Virus record (IMG/VR): IMGVR_UViG_3300034101_004157
Location: 1-52,116 of that record
Length of the DNA: 52,116 bases
Source: a virus
Direction: 5' to 3' (one strand)
The notes beneath the pieces are model-generated. The model was given only the letters and a program-made list of their open reading frames with translations. It had not been told where the DNA came from and did not search any database. Each line of letters begins with the position of its first letter. The first letter of the stretch is position 1. The translations under genes were made by a program, and so were the position numbers. Below, one piece after another: positions 5,018 to 27,730 of this stretch.

Positions 5018-6618
5018 ACGCCGCCGCATCCCCCGGCGCCGCCGTGCCGATCCCGGCCGCGCCGCCCTTCGCCCTGCGCGCATGGCAGACCGAGGCGCTG
5101 GACGCGATCCGCGGCGCCTTGGCCAAGCGCAAGCGGCCGGTGATCCATGCGTTCATGGGCGCCGGCAAGTCCGTCTTGCTCGCCGAGACCGCGCGCGCCG
5201 CCTGCGTCAAGGGCCTGCGCGTCGTCATCCTGACCCCGCGTCAGAACCTTGTGAAGCAGCTTGCGGCGACCATCGGCGCGTTCGTGCCCGGCACAGGCCA
5301 GTGGTACGGCGCGCGCAAGAAGATTGGCCGCGCGACGGTCGCCTGCTACGCCTCCCTCGACACGCTGATCGAAGCCTTCGCCGAGAAGGGTTTGACCTGC
5401 GACCTGCTGTTGGTCGACGAAGCCCACGGAAGCGAGGGCGAGGGGGTCAAGGAGGGCATCGAGCGCATCGGGGCGCGCTTCCGCGTGGCGGTGACCGCGA
5501 CCCCCTACCGCTCCCAGCGCGGCGAGTCGCTGACCTTGTGGGACGAGGTCGTGTATCGCTACGACTGGCGGCGGGGTGTGGCCGAAGGCGTGATCGTGCC
5601 GTGGCGCGTCATCGAATGGCCAGCCACCGACTGCCCCGACGTCGACGACGCGCTGATCGCGCTCTTCCGTACCCACAGCTTGCCCGGCCCGACGCTGACC
5701 AACGCCACGTCCATCGAAGACGCCGAAGCCTTTGCAGCGCGCCTGACCGAAGAAGGCTGGCCCGCCGCCGCGATCCACAGCCGCATCGGCGCCGCGGAGC
5801 AAGAGTGCCGGATCGAAGACCTGCGCGCCGGGCGATTGGCGGTCCTCGTCCACGTGTCCATGCTCAGCGAGGGCGCCGACTTCCCCTGGCTGCGCGGCCT
5901 CGCCCTGCGCCGCAACGTCGGCGCGAAGGTGCGGTTCGTGCAGGAAGTCGGCCGCGTGCTGCGCGCAGACCCGAAGTCCGGCAAGCGCGAGGGGGTCGTC
6001 TTCGACCCGCTCGCACTCATGAGCAAGTGGGGCCTCGATCATGCCGATGCACTCGGCGAGGTTGTCGAGGCGACCGACGACGACACCGACCGCCCGGCCC
6101 GCGAGCCCGGCGCAGGCGACGGCCCCAAGGGCAAGCGCGCCGTCAAGACGATGCCGGTCGGCGCATGGCTTGAGGCTGCCCTTGAAACGGCCCTGCCGGA
6201 CCTGCAGTCATCCCACACCCGCCGGCCCTACCTGACCGCTGCGCGTGCCGCCGTGGCGGCCGGCGACACGACCCCGGCGACCGGGCCGCAGTGGGGGCGC
6301 CTCGAACGCCTGACCGACGGCCGGCGCGGCAGCCTGTCATCGTTCCCGTGCAAGGAGACCCGCGAGCGCATCCGGGCGGCCGTCGCCCGCCGCGCCCTGT
6401 CCCGCCATGAGGCGTCCCTGCTGATCGACGTCCTGCAGTGGGCGCAGGACGCATCGGCATCGACCCGCGAGGCCGCCCGCGAGCACTTCCGCACCCGTGG
6501 CACCTGGGCCGGCGCCCCGCGCTGGGAATGGCCCGAGCCGCACCCGCCGCACCCGCCCGCCATCGACCCCTTGACCGCCGCCGAGCTGCGCGCCCGCAGC
6601 CAACAGGAGAGCGCATGA
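5014..6618 (+). CDS. SF2 DEAD/DEAH-box helicase
   Basis: This is a 534-residue superfamily 2 helicase. Motifs run in order: Q-like region FALRAWQ (19-25), motif I FMGAGKS (47-53), motif II VDEAH, motif III TATPY, and motif VI around VQEVGRVLR. The last 180 residues after the second RecA-like domain are extra and proline-rich. It resembles phage UvsW/RecG-type branch-migration helicases and restriction-type translocases, which help replication restart. It starts at an ATGA overlap with the HNH gene and ends in another ATGA overlap, so it is in one operon. Confidence 0.88.
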   Translation: MNAAASPGAAVPIPAAPPFALRAWQTEALDAIRGALAKRKRPVIHAFMGAGKSVLLAETARAACVKGLRVVILTPRQNLVKQLAATIGAFVPGTGQWYGARKKIGRATVACYASLDTLIEAFAEKGLTCDLLLVDEAHGSEGEGVKEGIERIGARFRVAVTATPYRSQRGESLTLWDEVVYRYDWRRGVAEGVIVPWRVIEWPATDCPDVDDALIALFRTHSLPGPTLTNATSIEDAEAFAARLTEEGWPAAAIHSRIGAAEQECRIEDLRAGRLAVLVHVSMLSEGADFPWLRGLALRRNVGAKVRFVQEVGRVLRADPKSGKREGVVFDPLALMSKWGLDHADALGEVVEATDDDTDRPAREPGAGDGPKGKRAVKTMPVGAWLEAALETALPDLQSSHTRRPYLTAARAAVAAGDTTPATGPQWGRLERLTDGRRGSLSSFPCKETRERIRAAVARRALSRHEASLLIDVLQWAQDASASTREAAREHFRTRGTWAGAPRWEWPEPHPPHPPAIDPLTAAELRARSQQESA

Positions 6619-7210: not shown

Positions 7211-7686
7211 CCGTCAACAAAGTCATCCTCATCGGCAACCTCGGCCGCGACGCCGAGCTCCGCAACACCACCTCCGGCATGCAGATCGCCAGCCTTCGCC
7301 TCGCGACCACCGACCGCCGCAAGGACAGCGCCGGCCAGTGGACCGACCACACCGAGTGGCACAGCGTGGTCGCCTTCGACAAGCTCGCCACCCTGATGGA
7401 GCGCTTCGGCAAGAAGGGCAAGCCGCTCTATGTCGAGGGCCGCATCCAAACCCGCGAGTACACCGACAAGGACGGGCAGAAGCGCTGGTCGACCGAGATC
7501 ATCGCCGGCGAGATCCGCCTGCTCGGCGGCCGCGAAGACAGCGCCGGGGCCACGTCCGACCGCAGCGACCGCGACCGCTCCGAGGGGAACCGCAGCGCCG
7601 ACCGGCAGGCCGGCAAGCCGCCCGCCCGCGCCCCAGCGAAGGCGCCGGCCGATGACTACGGCGATGAGGACTCGATGCCCTTTTAG
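7207..7686 (+). CDS. ssb: Single-stranded DNA-binding protein
   Basis: This 159-residue protein has the bacterial SSB OB-fold over about residues 1-108, with the signature start VNKVILIGNLGRDAELR and WHSVVAF. A Ser/Asp/Arg-rich linker follows, then an acidic tail ending DEDSMPF, close to the canonical DDDIPF tip that binds host replication and recombination proteins. It coats ssDNA during phage replication and would work with RecT (19847) and the SF2 helicase. The length is normal for the family. Confidence 0.97.
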   Translation: MTVNKVILIGNLGRDAELRNTTSGMQIASLRLATTDRRKDSAGQWTDHTEWHSVVAFDKLATLMERFGKKGKPLYVEGRIQTREYTDKDGQKRWSTEIIAGEIRLLGGREDSAGATSDRSDRDRSEGNRSADRQAGKPPARAPAKAPADDYGDEDSMPF

Positions 7687-7715
7687 GCCACCGCCGCCCC
7701 AACGGGAGCCCGACC

Positions 7716-8216
7716 ATGCACAAGCGCTTTGTCTTCGACCACTACACCCTGACCGCGCTTGCCCTGCGCGGCAGGATGCCGGGCCGCTTCTTCGTCACGT
7801 CGTCAACTGAGCTGGCCGCGGTGTTTCAGGATGGCCAGCACAGCAAGATCACCGTCGACGGCCTCAGCGGCGAGGGGCTCTACCTTGATGGCGTGGACCT
7901 CTACGACGGCGACAAGTGCGTTGCGCGCGGCTCTTTCGGTATCGTCTACACCAAGCGCGCCGAGGGCGTGCACGAATGGATGACCATGCTCCCGCACATC
8001 GAAGACAACCCGACCGAGCGCGCACTGGTGATGGCCGAAGCCGTCATCGCCGCAATCCACGCCGCCCACCGCCGCACCGGCATCCGCATCCAAGTCGAGC
8101 GCGGCGTCGTCGCTGCCGCGGCCCGCCGCCTCATCGCCGAGGGCGCCAACCCCGCGCACGTCCGCGCCGATCTCGTGGCCGGCGCCCTGCGCTTCACCGC
8201 ACCGGAGCCCGCATGA
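7716..8216 (+). CDS. Hypothetical protein of the ssb operon
   Basis: The product has 166 residues. The N-terminal half is rich in beta-strands and the C-terminal half is helical (about 95-160, Ala/Arg-rich). I do not recognise a family. It starts behind GGGAGCCCGACC, a variant of the common start module, and its stop overlaps the next start (ATGA). Confidence 0.7.
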   Translation: MHKRFVFDHYTLTALALRGRMPGRFFVTSSTELAAVFQDGQHSKITVDGLSGEGLYLDGVDLYDGDKCVARGSFGIVYTKRAEGVHEWMTMLPHIEDNPTERALVMAEAVIAAIHAAHRRTGIRIQVERGVVAAAARRLIAEGANPAHVRADLVAGALRFTAPEPA

Positions 8217-8539
8217 GCACCGAAGATCTGAACCCGCAAGGCTACTGCCCCATCGAGACCTGCGGCACCCCCATCGTCATGCGCGACCGCAGCCCGTCCG
8301 GGGCGAGCGTGTGCGCACTGGGGCACTACTCGCCGACGCGCGACGTCCATGCTGAGCCCTTGGTGCGGCGGGCCCGCGCAGCCAAGATTGAGGCGGAGCG
8401 CCAAGCGTGGAGGGATGAGGGTGCGGCTGCCGAGCGGGCGGCCATCGCCGAGTTCCTGCTGCACCGCGGGCTGACCCGCGAGGCTGAGCTGGTCACCGAC
8501 AACGCTTACCGCAACATCCTCGACGGACATCCCGCATGA
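8213..8539 (+). CDS. Hypothetical protein with zinc-binding N-terminus
   Basis: The protein has 108 residues. Cysteines in CPIETCG and CALGHY (about 10-40) could bind one zinc ion. A charged helix rich in Ala, Glu and Arg follows (about 50-85). It is joined to both neighbours by ATGA overlaps. No function is clear. Confidence 0.65.
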   Translation: MSTEDLNPQGYCPIETCGTPIVMRDRSPSGASVCALGHYSPTRDVHAEPLVRRARAAKIEAERQAWRDEGAAAERAAIAEFLLHRGLTREAELVTDNAYRNILDGHPA

Positions 8540-10312: not shown

Positions 10313-10328
10313 CCCAACGGAGCCGACC

Positions 10329-16554: not shown

Positions 16555-16601
16555 CACCACCTCCATCCGCCCGCCGATCCACTCGGCACCGCGGCCCCGG
16601 C

Positions 16602-16631
16602 AGCCTATCCCCGCCGCCGCGCACCCGTCAA
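16602..16631 (-). promoter_or_regulatory. Promoter of the MazG-clamp-methylase-reductase operon
   Basis: On the minus strand GCTATTGACG (TTGACG at 16626-16631) is followed by TAGGCT (16602-16607) after 18 bases. CTTTGCGGTTCTTTGCG lies upstream and resembles the ACTTTCTT element of the plus-strand promoters. It is divergent to the promoter at 16690-16748. Confidence 0.6.
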
Positions 16632-16689
16632 TAGCGGCGCGCAAAGAACCGCAAAGACCGCGAGAACACCGCAGCCGTGCGCGTCATGG

Positions 16690-16748
16690 ACTTTCTTTGC
16701 AGATTGTAGCGACCTGCTATTGACCCTCGCTGCCCGATCCTATAAACC
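16690..16748 (+). promoter_or_regulatory. Module A promoter with upstream AT element
   Basis: ACTTTCTTTGCAGATTGTAG begins at 16690. TTGACC begins at 16720, exactly 30 bases later. TAAACC follows at 16743 after 17 bases, overlapping TATAAA (16741-16746). The same element-to-box distance occurs in five promoters. A leader hairpin CGGGG/CCCCG (16760-16764 with 16776-16780) follows. Confidence 0.75.
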
Positions 16749-16799
16749 TATGGGGCCAGCGGGGAACAGAACCAGCCCCGAGCCCACCCGGAGCCGACC

Positions 16800-17366
16800 A
16801 TGAACGCCAACGCCAAGATCACGAGCACCGAGGCAGTCGTTGCTGCCGCCTTCGCGCTCCACCAAGACCGTCTCGCTGACGAGGCTGTCGCCAGCCTCCA
16901 GCGCTCCCTGGAGCGGATCAAGTCGGCCTACTCCAACCTGTCGCAAGAGGTCTACTCCTGCCCGCGCTACGGCCAGCTCTGGCGGGCGACGCTCCGCGAT
17001 CTTTGTGTGCGGGCCGACGGCACCTATGAGATGGACATGGACAAGGCCCAGGCTTGGGCGAAGACCTGGGCCCAGAACGAGATCGCCGCCGCCGCCAAGA
17101 AGCTCAGCGCCAAGGTGGGCCGCTTGGTCCGGGCGAAGGTCACCGGCGCCCCCGAGCGCGGTTGCTTTACCCTGACCGGGGGCCACCCGAACGGCGCCTT
17201 CGTCCGGGTGGAGCAGGACCGGATCTTGAACGTCAGCGGCAAGGGCACCCTTTACAACCAGTGGCCCGCCCGGATCTACGTTGACAACCGCCTGATCAGC
17301 GAAGTCGCCTACAAGCGAATCAGCCCGCGCGCCGAGGATCGGATCCTGCCCGAGATCGGCGACTGA
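16800..17366 (+). CDS. Hypothetical protein, first gene of module A
   Basis: The product has 188 residues. It is helical in the N-terminal 110 residues (with a coiled-coil-like stretch about 25-60) and strand-rich at the end, with GGHPNGAFVRVEQDRIL. I do not recognise a family. It starts behind CGGAGCCGACC and is followed by a UUCG-loop hairpin (17383-17406). It is the longest first gene of the five modules. Expression should be early and strong, judging from its promoter. Confidence 0.75.
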   Translation: MNANAKITSTEAVVAAAFALHQDRLADEAVASLQRSLERIKSAYSNLSQEVYSCPRYGQLWRATLRDLCVRADGTYEMDMDKAQAWAKTWAQNEIAAAAKKLSAKVGRLVRAKVTGAPERGCFTLTGGHPNGAFVRVEQDRILNVSGKGTLYNQWPARIYVDNRLISEVAYKRISPRAEDRILPEIGD

Positions 17367-17382
17367 CCAGCCCGCCCGGCGG

Positions 17383-17406
17383 CCCCGGCGGCTTCGGTCG
17401 TCGGGG
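17383..17406 (+). terminator. UUCG-tetraloop hairpin after the module A gene
   Basis: CCCCGGCGGC (17383-17392) pairs with GTCGTCGGGG (17397-17406) over a TTCG loop, with two G-U pairs. It is 17 bases after the stop and ahead of the next promoter. It fits a terminator, although no T-run follows. Confidence 0.6.
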
Positions 17407-17445
17407 CGCCAGCGGCGCGCAAACGTCGACGTGATGCGGCTTCCC

Positions 17446-17504
17446 ACTTTCTTTCGTGTTTCTATCAGCCGGCTATTGACCCTTGCGGCTCCATCCTATA
17501 AACC
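17446..17504 (+). promoter_or_regulatory. Module B promoter with diverged AT element
   Basis: ACTTTCTTTCGTGTTTCTAT starts at 17446 and TTGACC at 17476, again 30 bases apart. TAAACC (17499-17504) follows after 17, overlapping TATAAA (17497-17502). Only the first nine bases of the element match the others. The leader hairpin is GGCGGGG (17514-17520) with CCCCGCC (17530-17536). Confidence 0.7.
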
Positions 17505-17552
17505 ATGGGGGCCGGCGGGGAGCAAACCACCCCGCCCCACCCGGAGCCGACC

Positions 17553-17756
17553 ATGACCACCGCTACCCCGCTGACCGCCGAGCTTCGCGCCGCCTTCCGC
17601 ACCAACACCTCGTGCAAGCACGCGCATCCGCTGGCCCGCGCCGTCGCCTGCGCCCGCCGCGATTACGTCGCGTCCTGGCGCATCGGTCCGGCCGCCGAGG
17701 CCGCCGCGCTTGCCCGCTACAACGCCGCTGTCGCCGCGGTTGACGCCGCGGCCTGA
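17553..17756 (+). CDS. Small hypothetical protein, module B
   Basis: The protein has 67 residues, is Ala-rich and helical, with three Cys/His residues around CKHAH and CARRDY. It starts behind CGGAGCCGACC. I do not recognise it. A perfect palindrome follows (17765-17780), as hairpins do after the other module genes. Confidence 0.65.
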   Translation: MTTATPLTAELRAAFRTNTSCKHAHPLARAVACARRDYVASWRIGPAAEAAALARYNAAVAAVDAAA

Positions 17757-17764
17757 TCCACTTC

Positions 17765-17780
17765 ACAGGGCGCGCCCTGT
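17765..17780. terminator. Perfect 16-bp palindrome after the module B gene
   Basis: ACAGGGCGCGCCCTGT reads the same on both strands and begins 9 bases after the stop. A second inverted repeat, GCCTGA-CGT-TCAGGC (17832-17846), follows. The gap 17757-17957 holds no gene. The palindrome could be a hairpin, or a protein-binding site. Confidence 0.5.
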
Positions 17781-17957
17781 CCATCACCGCCCCGCCGTGC
17801 GCGCCCTTCCATGGTCGGCCGGGGCGGCGCCGCCTGACGTTCAGGCCGGTCCGCAAGACGCCCGCGTGGACCGCCCGCCGGAACATCCTCCCCGGTGGGT
17901 CAAGCGCGCTGCCCCAAGCGTGCGACGCGGGCGTTCTTTTCACCGACAGGAGACAGC

Positions 17958-19217
17958 ATGACCACCTTCGCCAGCCGCACCGAATGGCTCGCCGCCCGCT
18001 CCCAACCCGCACCCGACGGCGGCCCGATGCTCGGCGCCAGCGACGTCGCGACCCCATTCGGCCTCGGCTTCACATCACCCGCCCGCTTCGCCGCCATCCT
18101 GCGCGGCGACCTGCCCCGCGACCCCGAGCCGGACGCGCCCAGCGACCCGCGTGCGGTCGGCACGCGCCTGGAGCACGTCGCGCTCGCCGAGTACGCTGTG
18201 CACCACCGCCCCGCCGGCGCGTGGCCCCTAGCAGACCAGATCACCCGGTGGGCGCACCCGGACCGGCCATGGCTCGCTGTCAGCCCGGACGCGCTGGTCC
18301 TTGAGTCGCTCGGCGCCGACGTGACCGGCTTGGTCGAGGTCAAGATCCCCCGGTCCGCCGGCGCGCTCGGCGAGTACGCGCCGGACAACGCCGACGGCTA
18401 CGGCATCGCCGCAACCCTCGCCGACCTGCGCGGCCCGGCGATCCCCCGGCGCTACGCCTTGCAAGTCCTCGCCCAGATGGCCACGATCCGGGCCTGCCAA
18501 GCGCACAACACCGGCCCCGGCTACCCGCCCGCGCTGACCTACTGCGACCTCTGGGCCTGGGCCGGCCCGCACGCGCACCGCCGGGTTCGGCTGACCTGGG
18601 ACGACGGCGCCGATGCCGCCGCCGATGCGCTGTTCGATGCCGTCGCCGCATGGCGCCAGCGGCACGTCCTTGACGGCGAGCCCGTGCCTGTGGGCTGCCC
18701 CGACGACGCGGCCATCGCCGTCCGCCTCTGGCGCGCCGAGGGCCAGCACAGCGCGCCGGGGCTGGCCCGGACGGCTGCAGAGTACGCCGCGGCGGCCGAG
18801 GACATGAAGCGCGCCGAGGCCCGCAAGGACCGCACCAAGGCCGCGCTGCTCGGGGCGCTCTACACTGCCGGGGCGTCCACCGCCCTGATCCCCGACCCGG
18901 CCGCCGACCCGGGCGCGAAGACCAAGGCCGCCCGCGAGGGCAAGCCCGCAAAGGTCAACATCACCGGCACCCCGGGCGGCGTCCGCTCGCTGCGCGTCAC
19001 CCCGGGATGGCTCACCGACGCAGGCTGTACCCCGCTCTCCGACGACATCGACGCCCCCATCGAGCCGATCACCATCCCGGGCATCACGACCGGCGAGCTC
19101 GCCGCGCGCTGGGCCGACGCCCCGGCCGCCCCGGCGACCGACACCCCGCAGGCCGCCGATCCGGTCCTCGCCGCGGCGCTCGCTGCGATGGCCAGCGACG
19201 ACGGGGCGGACTGGTAG
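17958..19217 (+). CDS. YqaJ-type viral recombinase/exonuclease
   Basis: The product has 419 residues. The first 240 form a lambda-exonuclease-like (YqaJ) nuclease core: GASDV (26-30), GTRLEH with Glu 72, VSPDALV with Asp 111, and LVEVKIP with Glu 127 and Lys 129, the D...ExK metal site. It would chew 5' ends to expose single strands for RecT, which follows at 19847. The C-terminal 180 residues, Ala-rich with coiled-coil character, are extra. The start at 17958 has CAGGAGACAGC upstream. Confidence 0.85.
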   Translation: MTTFASRTEWLAARSQPAPDGGPMLGASDVATPFGLGFTSPARFAAILRGDLPRDPEPDAPSDPRAVGTRLEHVALAEYAVHHRPAGAWPLADQITRWAHPDRPWLAVSPDALVLESLGADVTGLVEVKIPRSAGALGEYAPDNADGYGIAATLADLRGPAIPRRYALQVLAQMATIRACQAHNTGPGYPPALTYCDLWAWAGPHAHRRVRLTWDDGADAAADALFDAVAAWRQRHVLDGEPVPVGCPDDAAIAVRLWRAEGQHSAPGLARTAAEYAAAAEDMKRAEARKDRTKAALLGALYTAGASTALIPDPAADPGAKTKAAREGKPAKVNITGTPGGVRSLRVTPGWLTDAGCTPLSDDIDAPIEPITIPGITTGELAARWADAPAAPATDTPQAADPVLAAALAAMASDDGADW

Positions 19218-19246
19218 CCGGGAACACCGACAGGCGCGCGGCTCTC

Positions 19247-19305
19247 ACTTTCTTTGCTGAAAGTAGCCGCGGCCTATTGACCCTGCGCTGAGGGGTGGAT
19301 ACACT
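19247..19305 (+). promoter_or_regulatory. Module C promoter with AT element
   Basis: ACTTTCTTTGCTGAAAGTAG starts at 19247, TTGACC at 19277 (30 bases later) and TACACT at 19300 after 17. The leader hairpin is GCGGGG (19316-19321) with CCCCGC (19333-19338). Confidence 0.75.
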
Positions 19306-19354
19306 CATGGGGCCAGCGGGGAGCAAAACCAACCCCGCCGCGCCGGAGCCGACC

Positions 19355-19750
19355 ATGAACGCCAAGATGAACAAGACCGAAGCCGCCGCCCTCGCCTACG
19401 ACGACGCTTGCCGCGCCTACACCAAAGCGCAGCACGAGAGCATCCGCATCTGGAAGTCCATCCGCATCGTCCGCGACGGCGGCACGCTGACCTGGAGCCA
19501 GGAGGACGTGCTGGTCGACGTCTGCCGCACCAAGGTCGGCAACCTCGCCTACCACATGACCCACGCTGAGATGGCTGAGATGGCCGCCCAGATCAGCCGG
19601 GAGAGCATCGCCGCCGCCAGCGCGCTGTGCGACGAGCTCGGCGAGATCGCCGACAAGCTGGAGCAGGCCGCCGCCCGCCGCGAGGCCCGCAAGGCCGCCG
19701 CCAAGGCCGCCCAGATCGCCGCCGCCTTCGCCGCCGCGGTGGCTGCCTAA
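19355..19750 (+). CDS. Hypothetical coiled-coil protein, module C
   Basis: The protein has 131 residues and is almost wholly helical, with a heptad-like Ala/Glu/Arg/Lys-rich C-terminus (about 75-131). I do not recognise a family. It starts behind CGGAGCCGACC and is followed by two hairpins before recT. It sits between the exonuclease and RecT, so it could be a recombination accessory protein, but only by position. Confidence 0.7.
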   Translation: MNAKMNKTEAAALAYDDACRAYTKAQHESIRIWKSIRIVRDGGTLTWSQEDVLVDVCRTKVGNLAYHMTHAEMAEMAAQISRESIAAASALCDELGEIADKLEQAAARREARKAAAKAAQIAAAFAAAVAA

Positions 19751-19757
19751 GCCCCCC

Positions 19758-19818
19758 GGGGCCGGCCCGGCGGCCCCCAACCCCCGCCCCAAGCGCGCCG
19801 CCCGGGACCGCGGCGCGC
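19758..19818 (+). terminator. Two hairpins between the module C gene and recT
   Basis: GGGGCCG (19758-19764) pairs with CGGCCCC (19771-19777). GCGCGCCGC (19793-19801) pairs perfectly with GCGGCGCGC (19810-19818). They separate the small ORF from recT and could act as a terminator or attenuator, since no new promoter is seen before recT. Confidence 0.55.
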
Positions 19819-19846
19819 GCCCCTACGCGAAACAAGGACACCAACC

Positions 19847-20971
19847 ATGAGCGACATCCCCACCGATCCAGAGGGCCTTGCCCGCGCCTTCGGCCTCGGC
19901 ATCCTCGCCCTGTACGGCCACACCCCGAAGACTGCCCCGCCGCCGCTGTTGGGATGGGTCAAGGCATGGCGAAGCAACGCTGAGGCCATCCTGACCGCGA
20001 CCCCCGCGCTGTGCAAGGCCGCCCCGGCCGCCTTGGGCGCCGCGGTGATCAACCTTGCCAAGATGGGCCTGATGCCCGGTATCCCCGGCGATGCGAGCGC
20101 GACCGGCTACCTGTACCCCGGGCAGGGCGGCCCGATGGGCGTGCCCTCGGCGCGCGGCCGGATCGCCCTGGCGCGCGCGGCCGGCGTCGCGGTGGAGACC
20201 TACCCGGTCGGCGTCAAGGACGAGATCACGCTCGACGTCGACGGCGATGTCGCCGAGGTCAAGCCGAACCCGGACGAGCGCCCGACCAAGTGGGAGCACC
20301 TGCGCGGCGTCATCGTGCGCACCGAGGACGGGACCGGTGCGGTCCGGCGGCACTGGGTGTCGGCCGGCGAGATCGAGGTCCGCAAGGTCCGCAGCAAGGG
20401 TGGCGGCCCGTGGCAGTCCGACCCGGTGGGCATGGCGCGCGGCAAGGCCGTCAAGATCCTTGTGGATCGCGGCATCCTGCCCCAAGCGCCGATCCCCATC
20501 CCCGGCCTGCGCGAGTGGCACGCCGCTGCCCCGGCGCCCGCCCTGCAGGTCATCGACGCCCCCGCCGCCCGCGCCCTGCCCGCGCCCATCGAGCCCGAGC
20601 CCGCCGACACCCCGCCTGCCGCGCCCACGGCCCCTGAGACCGCGCCCGCCGCGCCGGACGTGTCAGCGCCCGCCGAGGCGGAGCAAGCGGCCACGGAGGC
20701 TCCTGCGACGGCTGGGGAGGGTGCTGTGGTCACGCTCCCGTCTGGCGACCTGCTGGACCTGTGCGATGAACTGATCGCGGCTGCTTTCGACGACCGCATG
20801 ATCAGCGACGACGACGCGCAGGTCGCTGCGTATGCGACCATCGAGGCGTGGACCGCCGGCATGGCCAAGGCCGGCCGCGCGCCGACCATCGAGGCGGCCC
20901 GCGTCGCGATGCCCCGCTTGATCGCCAAGGCCCGCGACCTCGCAGGCAACCCGCCGGCCCGCGAAGTCTGA
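19847..20971 (+). CDS. RecT-family single-strand annealing protein
   Basis: The protein has 374 residues. Residues about 25-225 match RecT: ATGYLYP, GRIALARAAG, and WVSAGEIE followed by DPVGMARGKAVKILVDRG. It anneals complementary single strands made by the exonuclease encoded upstream and probably binds SSB. The last 150 residues, a Pro/Ala/Glu-rich linker plus a small acidic helical end, are longer than usual. The ribosome site is ACAAGGACACCAACC, weaker than the module start. Confidence 0.85.
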   Translation: MSDIPTDPEGLARAFGLGILALYGHTPKTAPPPLLGWVKAWRSNAEAILTATPALCKAAPAALGAAVINLAKMGLMPGIPGDASATGYLYPGQGGPMGVPSARGRIALARAAGVAVETYPVGVKDEITLDVDGDVAEVKPNPDERPTKWEHLRGVIVRTEDGTGAVRRHWVSAGEIEVRKVRSKGGGPWQSDPVGMARGKAVKILVDRGILPQAPIPIPGLREWHAAAPAPALQVIDAPAARALPAPIEPEPADTPPAAPTAPETAPAAPDVSAPAEAEQAATEAPATAGEGAVVTLPSGDLLDLCDELIAAAFDDRMISDDDAQVAAYATIEAWTAGMAKAGRAPTIEAARVAMPRLIAKARDLAGNPPAREV

Positions 20972-21046
20972 CACCCCGCGCCCCGGCGCATCCCAAACAC
21001 GCCGCGCCGTCCGGGGACGGCCGGCAATGTGCCAACGGAGTCCGAC

Positions 21047-21148
21047 ATGACCTGTGCCCTCTACGCCGCTGCCTTCGCCCTCGCCGCTGCCCTCGGCATC
21101 ACCCCGCCCGCCAAGCCCCAGGGCTGCAACGGCGGATGGATGGACTGA
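21047..21148 (+). CDS. Mini-ORF of 33 residues
   Basis: The ORF starts behind ACGGAGTCCGAC at ATG 21047. Its product has a short hydrophobic Ala/Leu stretch (4-18) and then a Gly/Cys end. It is too short to judge by homology. The start module and its placement between recT and the next gene support translation. Confidence 0.4.
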   Translation: MTCALYAAAFALAAALGITPPAKPQGCNGGWMD

Positions 21149-21234
21149 CCTGCCCCGGCCGCCCGTGGCCCCATCCCCGCGCGCCGACCGGGCCAACGGC
21201 GCGCTGCTTCCGCACACACCGACAGGAGCCGATC

Positions 21235-21867
21235 ATGACGACTGAGACCCTGACCAACGAAATGCGCGCGCTGCTCGCGCTGATCACCAACGAATGGCGC
21301 CCGCTGCCCCTCGCCGAGATCGCCTCGATCACCGGCTGCGCCGCTGTGCAGGGTGGCAACGTCCTTCGCCACCGCTTGAACCTGTGGACGCCGCCCGGCG
21401 GCGCCGACACCGAGCCGGGGCGTGTCTACATTCACGACCGCTTCGGGCTGCGGCTGGCGCGCTGCTACCGCGCCACCAACGAGGGCACGCGGTACTGGTG
21501 GCGCCGCTTCCCCGCGGAGGCAAGCGATGCCGACATCGTTGCTGAGGCTATGGCCCTCAGCCACAACGCGCACCTGTTCGGCTCCAAGCCGCCCAAGATG
21601 CGGAAACAGCCTGCGCGCAGCCTCTTCGCCCCAATCGGTGACGCACCCGCACCGGCTTCCGCCGAGGTTGCCGTGACCGCTCCGCCGGTCGCGCCGGTCG
21701 TCGTCATGGACGACATCGCGGGCCAGATCGCAAAGGCCCGCGCTGCGACCGAGCAGGCTGAGGCGGCGTGGCTGCAGTGTGCCACCGAGCTCGAGCAGCT
21801 CGAAGCGGTCCGGCGGGCGCGCATCGAAGCGCTGCAGGCTGAAATCGCCCGGCTGTCTTCCGTCTGA
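21235..21867 (+). CDS. Hypothetical protein with coiled-coil C-terminus
   Basis: The product has 210 residues. The first 85 could form a winged-helix-like domain (LLALITNEWRPLPLAEIAS, then GCAAVQGGNVLRHRL). The linker is Pro/Ala-rich and the end (about 155-210) is a clear Ala/Glu/Leu coiled coil. It starts behind AGGAGCCGATC. DNA binding is possible but not shown. Confidence 0.7.
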   Translation: MTTETLTNEMRALLALITNEWRPLPLAEIASITGCAAVQGGNVLRHRLNLWTPPGGADTEPGRVYIHDRFGLRLARCYRATNEGTRYWWRRFPAEASDADIVAEAMALSHNAHLFGSKPPKMRKQPARSLFAPIGDAPAPASAEVAVTAPPVAPVVVMDDIAGQIAKARAATEQAEAAWLQCATELEQLEAVRRARIEALQAEIARLSSV

Positions 21868-21890
21868 CCGAGCGCGCTTCCCCGCTGCTA

Positions 21891-21919
21891 TTGACGGCAT
21901 GACGCACGGCGGATAGCCT
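21891..21919 (+). promoter_or_regulatory. Promoter D
   Basis: TTGACG (21891-21896), 17 bases, TAGCCT (21914-21919), in a GCTATTGACG context. There is no ACTTTCTT element upstream. It serves a run of four coupled genes starting at 21951. Confidence 0.65.
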
Positions 21920-21950
21920 GCGGACAGACCCGCACCCCTTCGGACCGCCC

Positions 21951-22253
21951 ATGACCCGCCGTGCCGTCATCCCCCAACACCCCGCCGCCGACCTGATCGG
22001 CCGCGTGCCTGACGGCCTGCTGGCCTGCCTGATCGGCGTCACCCGGCCGGCCATCGGGCACCACCGCACGGCGCGGGGCATCCCGGCGGTCGACCCGCGG
22101 GCCTTCGTCGACGACGTGGGCGTGCAGGCCACGTTCAGGGCCGAAGCCATCGCCGAGGTCGCTGCGCGCCCCGACCGCGCCGACGCGCTCAACGCTGCGG
22201 CCGCGGCGTGGATCCCGGGGTGGGTGCCGGTCGCGCCAGAGGACCAGCCATGA
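21951..22253 (+). CDS. Small protein with possible helix-turn-helix
   Basis: The protein has 100 residues. LLACLIGVTRPAIGHHRTAR (about 23-42) resembles a helix-turn-helix. It starts only 32 bases after the promoter, without a clear ribosome site. The stop overlaps the next start. A regulator is possible. Confidence 0.6.
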   Translation: MTRRAVIPQHPAADLIGRVPDGLLACLIGVTRPAIGHHRTARGIPAVDPRAFVDDVGVQATFRAEAIAEVAARPDRADALNAAAAAWIPGWVPVAPEDQP

Positions 22254-22471
22254 CCAGCCTGCATCACCCAACCGCCCGCACCGTCATCGCCGAGATCGCC
22301 GGGGCCCTGCGCGAGCGTGCCGAGGCCCGACGGGCGCAGATCCCGGCGTGCACCGAGGCCGGCGGCAACATCGACGCGCTCACGGCGAAGGCGAGCGAGT
22401 GCGATGCGATGGCCGCCTTCGTGGCCGCCTACGCGCGCTTCTACCCGGACAGCAGCGAGGGCCAGCCATGA
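22250..22471 (+). CDS. Small hypothetical protein
   Basis: The product has 73 residues, is helical and Ala/Glu-rich. It is joined to both neighbours by ATGA overlaps. I do not recognise a family. Confidence 0.6.
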   Translation: MTSLHHPTARTVIAEIAGALRERAEARRAQIPACTEAGGNIDALTAKASECDAMAAFVAAYARFYPDSSEGQP

Positions 22472-22857
22472 CCACCGCCCCGCGCAACGCCCGCGCCTGC
22501 CTGTCCCGGCAGACGTCCGCCCACCTTGGCCCCGAGCGCGTCGCTTGGGTCACGTCGCGCGCCGATGCCGCCGGGCTGCCCCGCGCTGCCTTCGTGGCCT
22601 CGATCTGGCCCCGCGACGCGGACGGGGCGCTGGCGCTGGTTCAACCCCGTCATCCCCGCGCGCCGATGCCCTTGGGCCTGCGTGGCTACACCGCCGCAAG
22701 CGCCGGCGGGCTGGCCATCCTGACGTTGCACGGCCCGGCGTGGACCGATGCCGGCGGCCCTGACCTGCGCGGGCGCCTCGCAGCGCACGGCCGCGGTTGG
22801 TCGCTGTCGTCGGTGGTCCGGGCCGTGATCGATGCTGCGGTCGAGGCCGGGGCATGA
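22468..22857 (+). CDS. Hypothetical protein
   Basis: The protein has 129 residues with mixed strands and helices (GGLAILTLHGPAW near the middle). It is joined to both neighbours by ATGA overlaps and precedes the RuvC-like gene. I do not recognise a family. Confidence 0.6.
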   Translation: MTTAPRNARACLSRQTSAHLGPERVAWVTSRADAAGLPRAAFVASIWPRDADGALALVQPRHPRAPMPLGLRGYTAASAGGLAILTLHGPAWTDAGGPDLRGRLAAHGRGWSLSSVVRAVIDAAVEAGA

Positions 22858-23519
22858 CCACCCGCAAGCGCGCCCCGAAGCCCGCCGCCCCCATCCAGCC
22901 CCGCCTACCCGGCCCCCGCGTGGTCTTGGGCATCGACCCCGGCCAGACCGGCGGCGCGGTGGCGCTCTGGACGGCGCCCGGCGCGCTGCCGCAGGTTCTG
23001 GGGGCGTGGTCGTGGGCGCCTGTGGTGCGGCAGAAGCTGCCGTGCCTGCGCGTGCTCGGGGTCACTGTGGACGGCGCACAGGTCGAACGCATCGCGTCCT
23101 CGCTCGGCGCCGCAGGCTTTGCGGTCGGCGCATGGGTGCGCGCCGAGTGCATCGACCGCCTCGACGCCGTGGCCATCGAAGCCGCCCAGGCCCGCCCCGG
23201 AATGCCCGGCGCTGGTCTCGCCGTCGCCCGCGCCGCTGGTGAGCTCGCCGGGGGCGTCTGCGCAGCGTGGCACGGGCGCGTCCTGTGGCCTACCCCGTCC
23301 GCATGGCGCGCGGCAGCCTACCCCGGACGCACCCGCGCCGCCGGCAAGCCTGACCCGTCCGGCCTGATCGCCCAGACCGAAGGCTGGCCCGAAGGCGCCG
23401 CCGACGTCTGGCCCGGGGGCGTACCCGAGCACACGGCCGAAGCCCTCGGCGTCGCGCTCTGGGCCGCGGCGCAGGGCGAAGGCGCGGACGTGCGGGCCGG
23501 GGCGAAGGCGAAAGCGTAG
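22854..23519 (+). CDS. RuvC-like Holliday junction resolvase
   Basis: The protein has 221 residues with an RNase H fold. VLGIDPGQTG (24-33) carries the first catalytic Asp (28). VAIEAAQ carries Glu 109. EHTAEALGVAL near the end resembles the last RuvC motif, though the usual Asp is less clear. It would cut recombination junctions before packaging, downstream of the RecT/exonuclease pathway. It ends operon D; module E follows. Confidence 0.78.
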   Translation: MTTRKRAPKPAAPIQPRLPGPRVVLGIDPGQTGGAVALWTAPGALPQVLGAWSWAPVVRQKLPCLRVLGVTVDGAQVERIASSLGAAGFAVGAWVRAECIDRLDAVAIEAAQARPGMPGAGLAVARAAGELAGGVCAAWHGRVLWPTPSAWRAAAYPGRTRAAGKPDPSGLIAQTEGWPEGAADVWPGGVPEHTAEALGVALWAAAQGEGADVRAGAKAKA

Positions 23520-23537
23520 CACTGGCGCGGCTTCTGC

Positions 23538-23596
23538 ACTTTCTTTGCAGATTGTAGCGAAAGGCTATTGACCTGTGAGCGGCGGTCCGATAGGGT
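23538..23596 (+). promoter_or_regulatory. Module E promoter with AT element
   Basis: ACTTTCTTTGCAGATTGTAG starts at 23538, TTGACC at 23568 (30 bases later) and TAGGGT at 23591 after 17. From the element through TTGACC it is nearly identical to modules A and F. The leader hairpin at 23603-23627 has a GTCC...GGAC outer stem and a GCGGC/GCCGC inner stem with one bulged G. Confidence 0.78.
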
Positions 23597-23643
23597 GAAG
23601 GAGTCCGGCGGCGGTGGAGCCGCGGACGAACCTGGAGCCGACC

Positions 23644-23814
23644 ATGACCAGCCACGACCGCCTCTTCTCCGACGTCCTCTCCAAGCTCAGCGCCACGGTG
23701 GACTTCTGGATGGCGAACGGCCTGAGCGCCGCCGATGCAGTCCAGCGCGCGCTGGCGAACAGCTCCGCCGGACCGCGGGCCCGCGCTGCCCTGGCGGCGA
23801 AGTACACGGCCTGA
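23644..23814 (+). CDS. Small hypothetical protein, module E
   Basis: The protein has 56 residues and is helical. It starts behind TGGAGCCGACC. I do not recognise it. A GCGCGC/GCGCGC hairpin (23847-23870) separates it from the next gene. Confidence 0.6.
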   Translation: MTSHDRLFSDVLSKLSATVDFWMANGLSAADAVQRALANSSAGPRARAALAAKYTA

Positions 23815-23846
23815 CCCCTCCCGCCCGCCGCGGACGGGCACCCCTT

Positions 23847-23870
23847 CGCGCGCTGCCCGGCACCGGCGCG
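23847..23870 (+). terminator. GC-rich hairpin after the module E gene
   Basis: GCGCGC (23847-23852) pairs with GCGCGC (23865-23870). It lies just before the start module of the next gene, so it could be an attenuator rather than a full terminator. Confidence 0.45.
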
Positions 23871-23886
23871 CACTTTGGAGCCGACC

Positions 23887-24549
23887 ATGACCAAACCCCT
23901 GAACTCCACCCAGATCACGCACCGCGCCCGCAACGTTGCCCAGGTGATCATGGGCTACATCTCCACCGACGCCGACGGCGGCGAGACCATCCACAGCGAT
24001 GACCTCGCACTGGCCCTGCGCGAGTGCGCCGACACCGGCCTGCTTCCGGGCGGCGCCGACGGCGTGCTCGTGTGGGAGACCGCGCGGGCCCTGATCCCCG
24101 CGTCCGTCGCTGTCGAGGGTCTGTCGCCCGAGGACCACCCCGCCGCGCAGCGCAGCGCCGAGCCGACCTTCCCCGGTGAGGACTTCCCCGAACCGGCGTG
24201 CGGCGAAGGCCCCCGCGTGGCGCGCGAAGAAGCGGCGTGGGAAGCGCAGATCAAGGCCGCGCCGATGCCTGCGATCCCCGTTCGCGAGCCCGACCGCGTG
24301 CCGGAGTGGCTGACCGAGCGCTACCCCCTCGGCTCCGTCTGGCACGTCGACGACGAAGCTGGCGCGCCCTACGGGCTCTGCGCGCTGCGGTCCGGGGGCG
24401 TCAAAGCGACGATCATCGGCCACATCCTGATCGCTGAGCACGGCGAGGCGTTCACCTCCTTGTCCGGGCTGCTGATCACGATCGGCGCCGCCCGGATCGC
24501 GATCCATGCGCGGGCTTGGGTGTGGATCGCGAAGCGGGTGGACGCATGA
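23887..24549 (+). CDS. Hypothetical protein upstream of thyX
   Basis: The protein has 220 residues. A helical N-terminus (1-75), an acidic proline-rich linker and a mixed C-terminal domain with RYPLGSVWHVDDEAG can be seen. It starts behind TGGAGCCGACC, and its stop lies 23 bases before the preferred thyX start. I do not recognise it. Confidence 0.7.
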   Translation: MTKPLNSTQITHRARNVAQVIMGYISTDADGGETIHSDDLALALRECADTGLLPGGADGVLVWETARALIPASVAVEGLSPEDHPAAQRSAEPTFPGEDFPEPACGEGPRVAREEAAWEAQIKAAPMPAIPVREPDRVPEWLTERYPLGSVWHVDDEAGAPYGLCALRSGGVKATIIGHILIAEHGEAFTSLSGLLITIGAARIAIHARAWVWIAKRVDA

Positions 24550-24572
24550 GCCTTTCAACCAATGGAGTCAAC

Positions 24573-25424
24573 ATGACCCTCCGCCCCCAGAACCTCGCCG
24601 CCGACGGCCTCATCGGCGTGCGCATCCCAATCGGCCCTGCCGGGTTCATCGCCCTGCAGGACTACCACGGCACGGATGCCGCCATCGCCCGCGCCGCCCG
24701 GGTCAGCTACGGCCGGCATGACGCCGACCGCGGGCCCGACGCCGACGCGCGCCTGATCGGCTTCCTTGTCCGGCACCGGCACACAACGCCGATGGAGATG
24801 GGCCGGTTGGTCTTCCACGTCCGGCTGCCGATCTTCGTCGCGCGGCAGTGGATGCGGCATCGGACGTGGTCGTTCAACGAGATCAGCGGCCGATACACCG
24901 ACCTGCCCGCCGACTGCTACCGCCCGCCCGCGCTGCACGCCGAGCCCGCGCCGGGCGCCAACCAACAGGGCCACGGCGGGCGGCTTGACCCGGACACGCT
25001 GGCCAACGCCTGCGCAACGCTCATCGGCGCCGAGCACGCCGCGGTGTATGGCTACCGCGCCCTGCGCGATCTCGGCGTCGCCAAGGAGCAGGCCCGCATG
25101 GTCCTGCCCGTCGCCGTTTACACCGAGGTGACCGCCGCGGCCGACCTGCACAACCTGCTCCACTTCTTGAAGCTGCGCACCGCCGGCAACGCGCAGGACG
25201 AAATCCGGACCTACGCCAACGCCATCGAAGGCATCGTGTCCGCAGCCTTCCCGCTGACCCACGCCGCTTGGGTCGAGCACGTCCGCGACGCCGTCACCCT
25301 GTCCGCGTCCGCCCAGCGCGCCATCGCCGCCGCCCTGCGCACCGGCACCGCGCCGGACCTGTCGGCGCTGCCACCCCGGGAGCGGGCCGACGTCGAGGCG
25401 TGGATCGCGGGGGGTGGCCGATGA
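24573..25424 (+). CDS. thyX: Flavin-dependent thymidylate synthase
   Basis: The protein has 283 residues. The ThyX signature RHRTWSFNEISGRY is at about 95-108. It converts dUMP to dTMP using methylene-tetrahydrofolate and FAD, feeding phage DNA synthesis with the ribonucleotide reductase. I prefer the ATG at 24573 behind AATGGAGTCAAC; an in-frame ATG at 24546 overlaps the previous stop and would add nine residues. The last 60 residues, Ala-rich, extend a bit past the usual family end. Confidence 0.95.
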   Translation: MTLRPQNLAADGLIGVRIPIGPAGFIALQDYHGTDAAIARAARVSYGRHDADRGPDADARLIGFLVRHRHTTPMEMGRLVFHVRLPIFVARQWMRHRTWSFNEISGRYTDLPADCYRPPALHAEPAPGANQQGHGGRLDPDTLANACATLIGAEHAAVYGYRALRDLGVAKEQARMVLPVAVYTEVTAAADLHNLLHFLKLRTAGNAQDEIRTYANAIEGIVSAAFPLTHAAWVEHVRDAVTLSASAQRAIAAALRTGTAPDLSALPPRERADVEAWIAGGGR

Positions 25425-25750
25425 GCGCGACCGACTTGAAACCCTGCCCGTTCTGCGGCGAGTCTGCCGCGTGGGAGCCCACGAGCGAATGGACTGAGTG
25501 CGGCCATTGCGCCGCCACTGGGTCGTTCCGGGATCTGTGGAAAGGTGACTGGAACACGCGCCCCATCGAGGACTCTCTGCGCGCCCGCGCTGAGGCCGCC
25601 GAGGCTGCTGCTGCCCGCTGGCGCATCGTGCGCGACCTTGTGCACAAGATCGACGCGGAAGCGCGCCCCGGCGGGGTGATGGCTGACGACGACGTGCTCG
25701 ACATCGTGTACCGCGTGCTGCGTCACACCGGTCCGATCGGTGCCCCGTGA
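25421..25750 (+). CDS. Lar-like zinc-ribbon protein (first copy)
   Basis: The product has 109 residues. LKPCPFCG (6-13), then CGHC, then WNTRP near 45 form the zinc ribbon of the Lar (restriction alleviation) family. In Rac prophage, Lar modulates type I restriction/modification. A helical C-terminus (50-109) is added. The start overlaps the thyX stop. A second Lar-like protein is at 28131. Restriction alleviation is inferred from family only. Confidence 0.75.
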   Translation: MSATDLKPCPFCGESAAWEPTSEWTECGHCAATGSFRDLWKGDWNTRPIEDSLRARAEAAEAAAARWRIVRDLVHKIDAEARPGGVMADDDVLDIVYRVLRHTGPIGAP

Positions 25751-26325
25751 GCACCGCCCGCGTCGTGTACCCCCGCCTCCCCGTGCCTGCCTACGTCCCG
25801 CCCTCGCCCGCCGCCGCGGCTGCCCTCGCCGCGCTGTTGACCGGCGGGCCGTGGCTCACCCCGCACGGGCGGGAGGTGGTCGCCGAGGACATCGAGCGCG
25901 TCTACGCCCTGGTCTGCAGGCGCCAGCGATGGCCCGGCAGCGGCGTCACGATCCGGGCCGTGGCGGTCTTGCGGGACGCGGGCCTGATCGTCCGGCCGCG
26001 GCCGCCTGCGCGCCCTGGCGCGTGGGTGCCTGCCGTCGATCCGGTGCCTGTGCCCCGGCGCCCGGTGGTGCGGGTGCGCGCGCCGAAGGCCGACCCGTCG
26101 GAGCGCGGGGCGAACCCGGCATGCGTGCGGCCTGCCGATCCGGCGAAGGTCGCGCGGTTCTGGCACCGGTCCGGCTGCGACGCGGAGGGCATCGCCGCCG
26201 AGCTCGACAGGGCGTGCCCCCGCGACGGGCGGCCCTGGACGGCAGGCGAAGTCGGGGCGCTGTTGGGCGGGCTTGCTGTGATCGACGTGCGCAAGCGGCT
26301 TCCGGCGGGGTACAAACTTTCTTAG
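25747..26325 (+). CDS. Hypothetical protein, possible winged helix
   Basis: The protein has 192 residues. Residues about 38-80 (around VVAEDIERVYALVCRRQRW and VTIRAVAVLRDAGL) could be a winged-helix fold. The C-terminal part (about 130-175) is helical. The start is a GTG overlapping the previous stop (GTGA). Its own stop codon TAG (26323-26325) lies inside the AT element of the next promoter. Confidence 0.65.
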   Translation: MSTARVVYPRLPVPAYVPPSPAAAAALAALLTGGPWLTPHGREVVAEDIERVYALVCRRQRWPGSGVTIRAVAVLRDAGLIVRPRPPARPGAWVPAVDPVPVPRRPVVRVRAPKADPSERGANPACVRPADPAKVARFWHRSGCDAEGIAAELDRACPRDGRPWTAGEVGALLGGLAVIDVRKRLPAGYKLS

Positions 26326-26374
26326 CAGATTGTAGCGACAGGCTATTGACCGCTGACGAGGGCAGCGATAAGGT
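26316..26374 (+). promoter_or_regulatory. Module F promoter with AT element
   Basis: ACTTTCTTAGCAGATTGTAG starts at 26316, TTGACC at 26346 (30 bases later) and TAAGGT at 26369 after 17. The element differs from modules A and E by one base, which makes the TAG stop of the gene before it. The leader hairpin is CGGGG (26383-26387) with CCCCG (26396-26400). Confidence 0.78.
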
Positions 26375-26423
26375 TTGGGGGCCGGGGTGCTGGAGCCCCG
26401 AGCCCGCCACACCGGAGCCGACC

Positions 26424-26618
26424 ATGACCGCTACCAAGACCGCCGCCGCACGCCTCACCAACGCCGCTGGCCAGAAGCTCGACGGGGCCCAGGCCATCTA
26501 CAGCGCCAAGAACGACCCGAACCACGGCCGCGGCTGGTTCCTGCGCTTCCCGTCCGGCCGCACCCAGTGGATCGGCCGCAACGCTGCCGAAGCCGCCGAG
26601 TGGATCGAGAACCGCTGA
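26424..26618 (+). CDS. Small hypothetical protein, module F
   Basis: The protein has 64 residues, with a basic N-terminus and GRGWFLRFPSGRTQWIGRN (36-54), which looks like a small beta-rich domain. It starts behind CGGAGCCGACC. The first 73-bp direct-repeat copy begins 6 bases after its stop. Confidence 0.65.
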   Translation: MTATKTAAARLTNAAGQKLDGAQAIYSAKNDPNHGRGWFLRFPSGRTQWIGRNAAEAAEWIENR

Positions 26619-26623
26619 GGCCA

Positions 26624-26696
26624 CCCGGCCACGGGGCCGCCGCAAGGCCCCGGCACCGCCGCGCACACCGCGCGCCGGCCCGCCCGCTGCCGATGC
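26624..26696. repeat. 73-bp direct repeat, left copy
   Basis: These 73 bases recur at 27658-27730 with one difference (C at 26683, T at 27717). The distance is 1034 bases and encloses one gene. The repeat contains a hairpin, CGGGGCC (26632-26638) with GGCCCCG (26646-26652), which may end the module F transcript. The start region after each copy is also related (GATGGGGCG). Confidence 0.85.
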
Positions 26697-26730: not shown

Positions 26731-27651
26731 ATGATCAAGCGTATCATAGTGCTCTCGCTGTCCGGCGGCAAAGATAGTGCCGCTGCCGCCCTGTTTTTGC
26801 GTGAGCAGGGCATCGAGCATACCCGCGTCTGGATGGATACGGGATGGGAGCATCCCGATCTATACGCGCATGTGGACTATCTGGAGGCCGAGCTTGGTCC
26901 AATCGTCCGGCTCTCGCCAAGGATGCCAGTACTGCCCCACGAATTGCTCCCGCGCGTGGAGGAGATCGAGGCGCTGGTTGGCCGGGCGCCGTCCGGCTTT
27001 GTCCGCTGGGCTGCCTATAAGGCAATGTTCCCGAGCCGGATGCGGCGGTACTGCACGCAGGAGTTGAAGATCCGCCCATTCCTCCGGTGGGTTGAGGAAC
27101 AAGACGACGACATCGTGAACGTCGTCGGGATCCGAGCAGCCGAAAGCGCCGCCCGCGCCAACCTCCCCGAGCGCGAAGCCATGCCCGGCGCGGAGCATGT
27201 CGAAGTCTGGCGCCCTATTATTAGCTGGACGGAGGCGGACGTAATCGCCATCCACCAGCGCCACGGGCTTCGGCCGTGTCCCCTGTACCTGCGCGGGTCC
27301 ACCCGCGTAGGATGCTGGCCGTGCATCATGGCGAACAAGGGGGAGCTTGCCCTGCTCGCTAAGGATGACCGCCGCGTGCAGGCAATCCGGGCCTTGGAGG
27401 CACTGGTAGGCGACATGGCGGCGACCCGAGCGACACGCGGCCATGGTCGCCCGGGTCTGTTCCAGTCAGCCGCTCCGGTGCAGACGCCGGACGGGCCGAA
27501 GTGGCCATGCCTGCCCATCGACGAGGTGCTGACCTGGGCTCACACCGAGCGTGGCGGAAGGCAGCTGCGGCTCGGCGATTGGGGCCGTGAGGACGGCTGC
27601 GTCCGGTGGGGCATGTGTGACACGGAGCTGACCAGCCCGGCGCGGGCCTGA
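26731..27651 (+). CDS. PAPS-reductase-family ATPase (DndC-like)
   Basis: The product has 306 residues. SLSGGKDS (9-16) is the PP-loop of adenylating ATPases, and the order of later motifs (RYCTQELKIRPF, VGIRAAES, CPLYLRGSTRVGCWPC) fits the phosphoadenosine-phosphosulfate reductase superfamily. The GCWPC cysteines could bind Fe-S or zinc, as in DndC-type sulphur-transfer enzymes. Its substrate is unknown; nucleobase or tRNA thiolation and DNA phosphorothioation are candidates, but no Dnd partner is present. The start at 26731 follows GTGGAGATGACC, similar to the common module. It lies alone inside a repeat-flanked cassette with different codon use. Confidence 0.8.
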   Translation: MIKRIIVLSLSGGKDSAAAALFLREQGIEHTRVWMDTGWEHPDLYAHVDYLEAELGPIVRLSPRMPVLPHELLPRVEEIEALVGRAPSGFVRWAAYKAMFPSRMRRYCTQELKIRPFLRWVEEQDDDIVNVVGIRAAESAARANLPEREAMPGAEHVEVWRPIISWTEADVIAIHQRHGLRPCPLYLRGSTRVGCWPCIMANKGELALLAKDDRRVQAIRALEALVGDMAATRATRGHGRPGLFQSAAPVQTPDGPKWPCLPIDEVLTWAHTERGGRQLRLGDWGREDGCVRWGMCDTELTSPARA

Positions 27652-27657
27652 CCTGCC

Positions 27658-27730
27658 CCCGGCCACGGGGCCGCCGCAAGGCCCCGGCACCGCCGCGCAC
27701 ACCGCGCGCCGGCCCGTCCGCTGCCGATGC
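27658..27730. repeat. 73-bp direct repeat, right copy
   Basis: This is the right partner of 26624-26696 (72 of 73 bases identical). It begins 6 bases after the stop of the PAPS-reductase-like gene, the same distance as the left copy after its gene, and carries the same terminator-like hairpin. Confidence 0.85.

Follow-up and report, generated by a model that had tools for sequence, protein, structure and literature searches.

Can a phage keep an expression signal in place and change the small gene behind it? The question is raised by IMG/VR virus record IMGVR_UViG_3300034101_004157, whose whole 52,116 bases were analysed (hereafter the window). An original prediction described five reiterated modules in this DNA, each with a promoter, a leader hairpin, a start signal and a small open reading frame (ORF), and proposed a modular cassette that takes up different small genes. 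Comparison with related contigs bears this out, as the sockets are kept, the ORFs within them change, and one ORF can occur in several sockets. The reading we favour, with a probability of about 0.72, is that these are fixed, co-regulated promoter sockets whose cargo is exchanged by homologous recombination via the leader/start repeat and the slot flanks.

Anatomy of the modules

Modules A, B, C, E and F constitute a single direct-repeat family of 79 nucleotides (nt), with five copies beginning at 16690, 17446, 19247, 23538 and 26316, and precede ORFs of 188, 67, 131, 56 and 64 amino acids (aa), in agreement with the places and sizes first given. The five ORFs are unrelated, as had been claimed, with a best cross-match of E = 0.007. 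The order within a module is box (ACTTTCTTTGCAGATTGTAGC), -35 element (CTATTGACC), -10 element, leader hairpin and start module (GGAGCCGACCATGA):

16690-16710 (+): module A box, ACTTTCTTTGCAGATTGTAGC, repeat family
16720-16746 (+): module A putative promoter, TTGACC ... TATAAA
16760-16780 (+): module A leader hairpin, CGGGG...CCCCG
16790-16803 (+): module A start module, GGAGCCGACCATGA
17446-17466 (+): module B box, repeat family
17476-17502 (+): module B putative promoter, TTGACC ... TATAAA
17514-17536 (+): module B leader hairpin
17543-17556 (+): module B start module
19247-19267 (+): module C box, repeat family
19277-19305 (+): module C putative promoter, TTGACC-17-TACACT
19316-19338 (+): module C leader hairpin
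19345-19358 (+): module C start module
23538-23558 (+): module E box, repeat family
23568-23596 (+): module E putative promoter, TTGACC-17-TAGGGT
23603-23627 (+): module E leader hairpin, with a different stem sequence
23634-23647 (+): module E start module, the 5' limit of the swapped segment
26316-26336 (+): module F box, repeat family
26346-26374 (+): module F putative promoter, TTGACC-17-TAAGGT
26383-26400 (+): module F leader hairpin
26414-26427 (+): module F start module

The box is 18-21 nt long, consisting of ACTTTCTT followed by a variable right half, and 30 nt separate its first base from the TTG of the -35 element. Within the window, matches at 0-1 mismatch are confined to the five modules, and ACTTTC...GAAAGT symmetry is seen in some boxes only. 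Judged by their sequence, the promoters appear to be of the sigma70 type, with TTGACC or TTGCAC as -35 element, mostly 17 nt from a TANNNT -10. This spacing is found in modules C, E and F of the window, and modules A and B have TATAAA at 15 nt instead. Opposite module A lies a divergent promoter (16597-16640, minus strand; CTATTGACG ... GATAGG) that includes a box-like TTCTTTGCGGTTCTTTGCG element and is kept in two of the close relatives described below, G002 and G003.

The GC-rich leader hairpin sits right after the expected transcription start. Leaders A, B, C and F carry CGGGG...CCCCG, in agreement with the number of four given by the original prediction, and leader E has another stem in the same place. 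Over 28 leaders of the wider family, the longest perfect stem averages 5.7 bp, against 4.44 +/- 0.18 (maximum 4.96) in 300 dinucleotide shuffles; since leaders and boxes share descent, the stem and box statistics overstate independence. The stems were assessed by single-sequence statistics, and loop lengths differ among leaders. No U-tract is present in the sequence of the leader stems, and an Rfam search gave no match above chance.

The start module combines a Shine-Dalgarno sequence and a start codon, and its conservation reaches beyond the ribosome-binding site. At up to two mismatches, GGAGCCGACCATGA occurs nine times in the window (0.6 expected). Two copies, at 10319 and 23877, precede genes without a box promoter, encoding a DNA methylase and a 220-aa protein, respectively. 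Four other phage contigs (L032, L038, L043 and L044) have the start module once each; there it is preceded by a promoter, with a palindrome of the TAAAATTAGG type, and by a leader hairpin, which may be a separate use of a common start signal.

Regarding the second hairpin that was proposed to follow each ORF, such structures can be drawn, and their folding energy in the ORF flanks of the window is what its G+C content of 71% predicts (z from -1.9 to +1.0). As these energies are ordinary, a role of the second hairpin as terminator is unsupported.

Cargo turnover in conserved slots

The window encodes a terminase, a tape measure protein, DNA helicases, a ribonucleotide reductase (RNR), a DNA polymerase III beta clamp, a single-stranded DNA-binding protein, a ThyX-type thymidylate synthase, a RecE-like exonuclease, a RecT-like annealing protein and a RuvC-like resolvase. 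Annotated phages yielded no relative in DNA searches, whether near or distant. The terminase is just 27-29% identical to those of Arthrobacter and Microbacterium phages, and the matches of RNR, ThyX and terminase leave the host unfixed. The close kin are three IMG/VR contigs (G001, G002 and G003); all relatives are metagenome contigs. The start of G002 corresponds to position 7051 of the window and its end matches 5019-5357, consistent with genomes that are circular or circularly permuted. Core proteins flanking the slots are mostly 81-98% identical between the window and these three contigs; the exceptions are in G002, with RecT at 62% and the neighbouring 220-aa protein at 40%. Two pattern scans of viral contigs and a protein search added G004, G019, G020, G021, G022 and the contig of L017. 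The cargo and the slot flanks are located as follows:

16800-17366 (+): cargo A, 188 aa; homologue in an L017 module (46%), distant homologues in proteobacterial phages
17390-17445 (+): spacer between tandem modules A and B
17553-17756 (+): cargo B, 67 aa; 98.5% identical ORF behind the slot A promoter in G003
17765-17780 (+): palindrome ACAGGGCGCGCCCTGT, conserved 3' flank of slot A/B
19355-19750 (+): cargo C, 131 aa
23644-23814 (+): cargo E, 56 aa; 59% identical homologue in slot E of the distant G021
23812-23839 (+): 3' flank of slot E, from the stop codon on identical in the window, G001 and G002
26424-26618 (+): cargo F, 64 aa
26624-26696 (+): 3' flank of slot F, a 73-nt direct repeat with a second copy at 27658-27730

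The original prediction named fixed ORFs without turnover in relatives as the contrary outcome; among the window and its three close relatives, 8 of 12 pairwise slot comparisons place unrelated cargo in the same slot. Slot A/B, before the RecE-like gene, holds tandem modules with ORFs of 188 and 67 aa in the window, one module with the 67-aa ORF in G003, and one with an unrelated 99-aa ORF in G002. Slot C is flanked by the RecE-like gene and RecT. It has the 131-aa ORF in the window and in G002; in G003 that ORF comes second, after an additional module whose cargo is a CxxC Zn-finger-like protein of 126 aa. After the RuvC-like gene, slot E contains 56 aa in the window, 126 aa in G002 (Zn-finger-like, as in slot C of G003) and 68 aa in G001. 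The ORF of slot F measures 64 aa in the window and 58 aa in G002. In G001 this slot has two cargo genes, an ORF of 70 aa and, second, one for a pentapeptide-repeat-like protein of 228 aa (L022, G001r 7587-8273).

The joins coincide with the signals. In slot E, the window, G001 and G002 agree up to the start module and not inside the ORF, and identity is 100% over 30 nt counted from the stop codon onward. The 3' limit of slot A/B is the palindrome ACAGGGCGCGCCCTGT directly after the stop, and that of slot F is a GGGGCC...GGCCCC flank, present twice in the window (99% identical) on either side of a PAPS-reductase-like gene. Slot A of G003 consists of the upstream flank of module A of the window fused to the leader and ORF of module B, as expected from a crossover inside the repeat. 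The A-B spacer of the window is also found between tandem modules C1 and C2 of G003.

The wider family

Pattern searches, along the lines of the check that had been proposed, enlarged the family; it now counts 33 modules, spread over 10 contigs, and their cargo falls into 22 families. Its genomes are about 50 kb long, with a tape measure gene and a G+C content of 62-74%; no T4-type relative was found by DNA. Slots A, C, E and F return around the same core genes, the slot names in distant phages being assigned by core-gene order. Core proteins of the window and of these phages are only about 40-60% identical; nevertheless, the distance from box to -35 element is constant wherever a box can be recognised. 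In 323 kb, the ACTTTCTT octamer has 22 forward copies, every one of them in a module (0.86 expected by chance). The sole reverse match belongs to a module box too, as its palindromic copy.

Cargo moves between slots. The Zn-finger-like family occupies slot E in G002 and slot C in G003, G020 and G021; the 131-aa family, in slot C of the window group, has a distant homologue in slot A of G004; and the 188-aa family recurs in L017, at a position that, judged from context, is upstream of the terminase genes. The 56-aa cargo of slot E is found again in slot E of the distant G021 and is absent from that slot in the close G001 and G002. Leaders and cargo also combine freely. For instance, G004 and G020 share a leader of 43-44 nt (95% identical), behind which lies a 124-aa ORF in the former and a 76-aa ORF in the latter, and a 79-aa ORF common to G004 and G019 has two different leaders. 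Tandem modules occur in the window, G003 and G021. In G019 and G022, an independent close pair (ThyX 97% identical), cargo differs in both slots compared.

A pattern scan of genome contigs returned seven unrelated contigs, judged to be chance matches from their organisms. RecT, ThyX and the 126-aa cargo used as protein baits gave no further close phages; the pattern searches did better.

How the cargo may be exchanged

Under the favoured reading, a socket would have five parts: a slot-specific 5' flank, the box, the leader hairpin, the start module and a slot-specific 3' flank. A constant interval would separate the box from the sigma70-type promoter downstream of it, and the 3' flank would begin at or just past the stop codon. 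The cargo of this uncultured tailed-phage family would be exchangeable ORFs, mostly single genes. Homologous recombination via the leader/start repeat and the slot flanks would swap cargo and gain or lose tandem sockets, most likely during mixed infections and aided by the RecE/RecT pair of the phage itself. A regulator bound at the box could then bring any incoming gene into the same early-type programme. The RecE-like and RecT-like genes are encoded between the slots, and recombinases of this type act on short, diverged homologies (PMC3945230); both points were counted in favour of homologous recombination. Neighbouring genes of interest are:

17958-19217 (+): RecE-like exonuclease, core, candidate recombination enzyme
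19847-20971 (+): RecT-like annealing protein, core
21891-22253 (+): helix-turn-helix (HTH)-like protein (ORF 21951-22253); its promoter is of the module core type and lacks a box
26731-27651 (+): PAPS-reductase-like gene between the slot F flank copies; best PADLOC match SspD, 3e-26

Several observations weigh against sockets refilled by homologous recombination: the exchange is known here from its products alone, the cargo of slot C is unchanged across the window, G002 and G003, the sockets of G004 have no recognisable box, the 3' hairpins are unremarkable in energy, and genes turn over outside the modules of these genomes as well. The last point would also follow from ordinary mosaicism, in which random illegitimate recombination is filtered by selection for promoter, ribosome-binding site and frame, and the modules are duplicated early promoters that serve regulation only. 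Joins close to start and stop codons are what selection by itself would favour. However, the joins fall repeatedly and exactly at the start module, in slot E also at the stop codon in three phages, and the slot A join of G003 lies inside the repeat; moreover, near-identical leaders stand before unrelated cargo in phages with diverged core genes. We regard mosaicism of this kind as improbable. A more demanding form of the socket idea, a dedicated plug-in system of a new phage family, with one box-binding regulator, fixed sockets, start-to-stop insertion and a shared pool of single-ORF anti-host or anti-defence genes, is held only tentatively, as less likely than not.

The precise exchange of single ORFs, the short conserved sequence at the 5' border and the tandem modules of the window, G003 and G021 might suggest a site-specific cassette system, integron- or transposon-like, with a dedicated recombinase reading the box, leader or start module. 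Yet the 3' border is not conserved between slots, the flanks are slot-specific, as homologous recombination predicts, and no integrase or transposase was found among the scanned gene products of the window (not every ORF was scanned), which makes such a system very unlikely. Equally unlikely is an assembly artefact in which wrong genes were joined at repeated modules. Although all relatives are assembled contigs with within-genome repeats, identical stretches between modules of one genome are short (about 23 nt between A and E of the window), and the pattern returns in contigs from several samples and in the independent pair G019/G022.

Cargo function and a candidate regulator

Pfam, PHROG and PADLOC searches of the module ORFs gave no confident cargo function, and the module ORFs of the window lack any confident family match to the early host-takeover proteins that the original prediction had envisaged. 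PADLOC, which covers defence and not anti-defence proteins, returned no match for the module ORFs. A resemblance of cargo C to T7 gp1.2 (E = 0.008) was below the cut-off and was rejected. In AlphaFold models, cargo A has a pLDDT of 83 and matches uncharacterised phage proteins only and no solved structure, and cargo C is all-helical (pLDDT 79). The cargo probably consists of non-essential host-interaction proteins; promoter type, ORF size, patchy distribution and analogy with other viruses suggest early timing and a host-directed function.

The constant box and fixed promoter spacing suggest one DNA-binding regulator, of which the box is probably the operator. The conserved HTH-like protein is a candidate by position and by eye; it has no Pfam match, and its own gene lies behind the module-type core promoter without box. 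Alternatively, the box, AT-rich and at roughly -65 to -45, may be an UP element.

Other features of the window

G001 and G002 have a single copy of the slot F flank and no PAPS-reductase-like gene at this place. A tRNA-Arg (gcg) that ARAGORN calls at 26589-26680 (minus strand) is probably false and was discarded, as it runs into the end of cargo F and the GC-rich 3' flank repeat. A 30-nt repeat with palindrome CATCGGGGCTCTCCGATG, found in the leftward structural region, has three copies (42517, 45646 and 47443), possibly a late-gene terminator or operator. A 48-nt repeat is present in two copies (79%) at 1469-1594, with a spacing of 78 nt.

Comparison with known systems

Small accessory genes of phages change fast, and the way in which a new gene acquires its expression signals immediately can rarely be seen; here sockets, cargo pool and joins can be read directly over ten phage contigs. 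Fixed sockets with swappable genes look like a fast route to altering small infection proteins, and the role of phage RecE/RecT in gene shuffling becomes testable at defined sites. In lambdoid phages, morons are extra genes lying between core genes, each equipped with a promoter and a stem-loop; they bring promoter and terminator with them, whereas here promoter and leader are mostly a property of the slot and several sockets share one box. Closer still are the PeSL (promoter-early stem-loops) cassettes of T4-type phages, reportedly the subject of work by Arbiol in 2010 and Comeau in 2014.

With such cassettes and the SAS/ESAS elements as close known kinds, calling the present system undescribed was too strong. 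PeSL consist of a strong sigma70-type promoter and a stem-loop that acts as transcription terminator. The likeness to our modules is that promoter and stem-loop are repeated in a variable region and that recombination at the cassettes reshuffles nearby small genes among closely related phages (PMC4503421). In contrast to PeSL, the present phages are not T4-type myoviruses (their genomes being of the size and G+C content given above), the stem-loop is part of the leader and could not be shown to act as terminator, there is an extra upstream box at a fixed distance and a conserved start module, and exchange is confined to the ORF, the promoter staying in its slot. The SAS/ESAS elements of cluster K mycobacteriophages and cluster EF Microbacterium phages (PMC3203893, PMC11373665, PMC7302621) likewise put a short conserved start-codon sequence on some genes of different families; upstream, this is coupled to a repeated promoter that has an element of partial symmetry, in their case a 17-bp inverted repeat. 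However, the box sequence is unrelated, the SAS consensus GGGATAGGAGCCC has just GGAGCC in common, and ESAS accompany the same gene families from genome to genome; in our phages, by contrast, the module stays and its cargo is replaced. The mode of action thus comes closest to PeSL and the anatomy to SAS/ESAS. We file the modules under neither, because the phage type differs from that of PeSL and no terminator is demonstrable, and because ESAS stay with their genes and here the genes leave.

The best functional analogy is found in archaeal viruses, where one conserved promoter region stands before many unrelated small genes, early regulatory sequences mark anti-defence genes that are expressed immediately after infection, and the anti-defence role was tested (PMC11065993). 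Unlike in our phages, the promoter elements there are archaeal, and the passages on them describe no start-to-stop cargo exchange in fixed slots. By the same account, the archaeal early promoter has already served as a search key for anti-defence genes; if the cargo described here is anti-defence, the ACTTTCTT box and leader could likewise serve as search key or bait for new anti-defence genes of bacteriophages.

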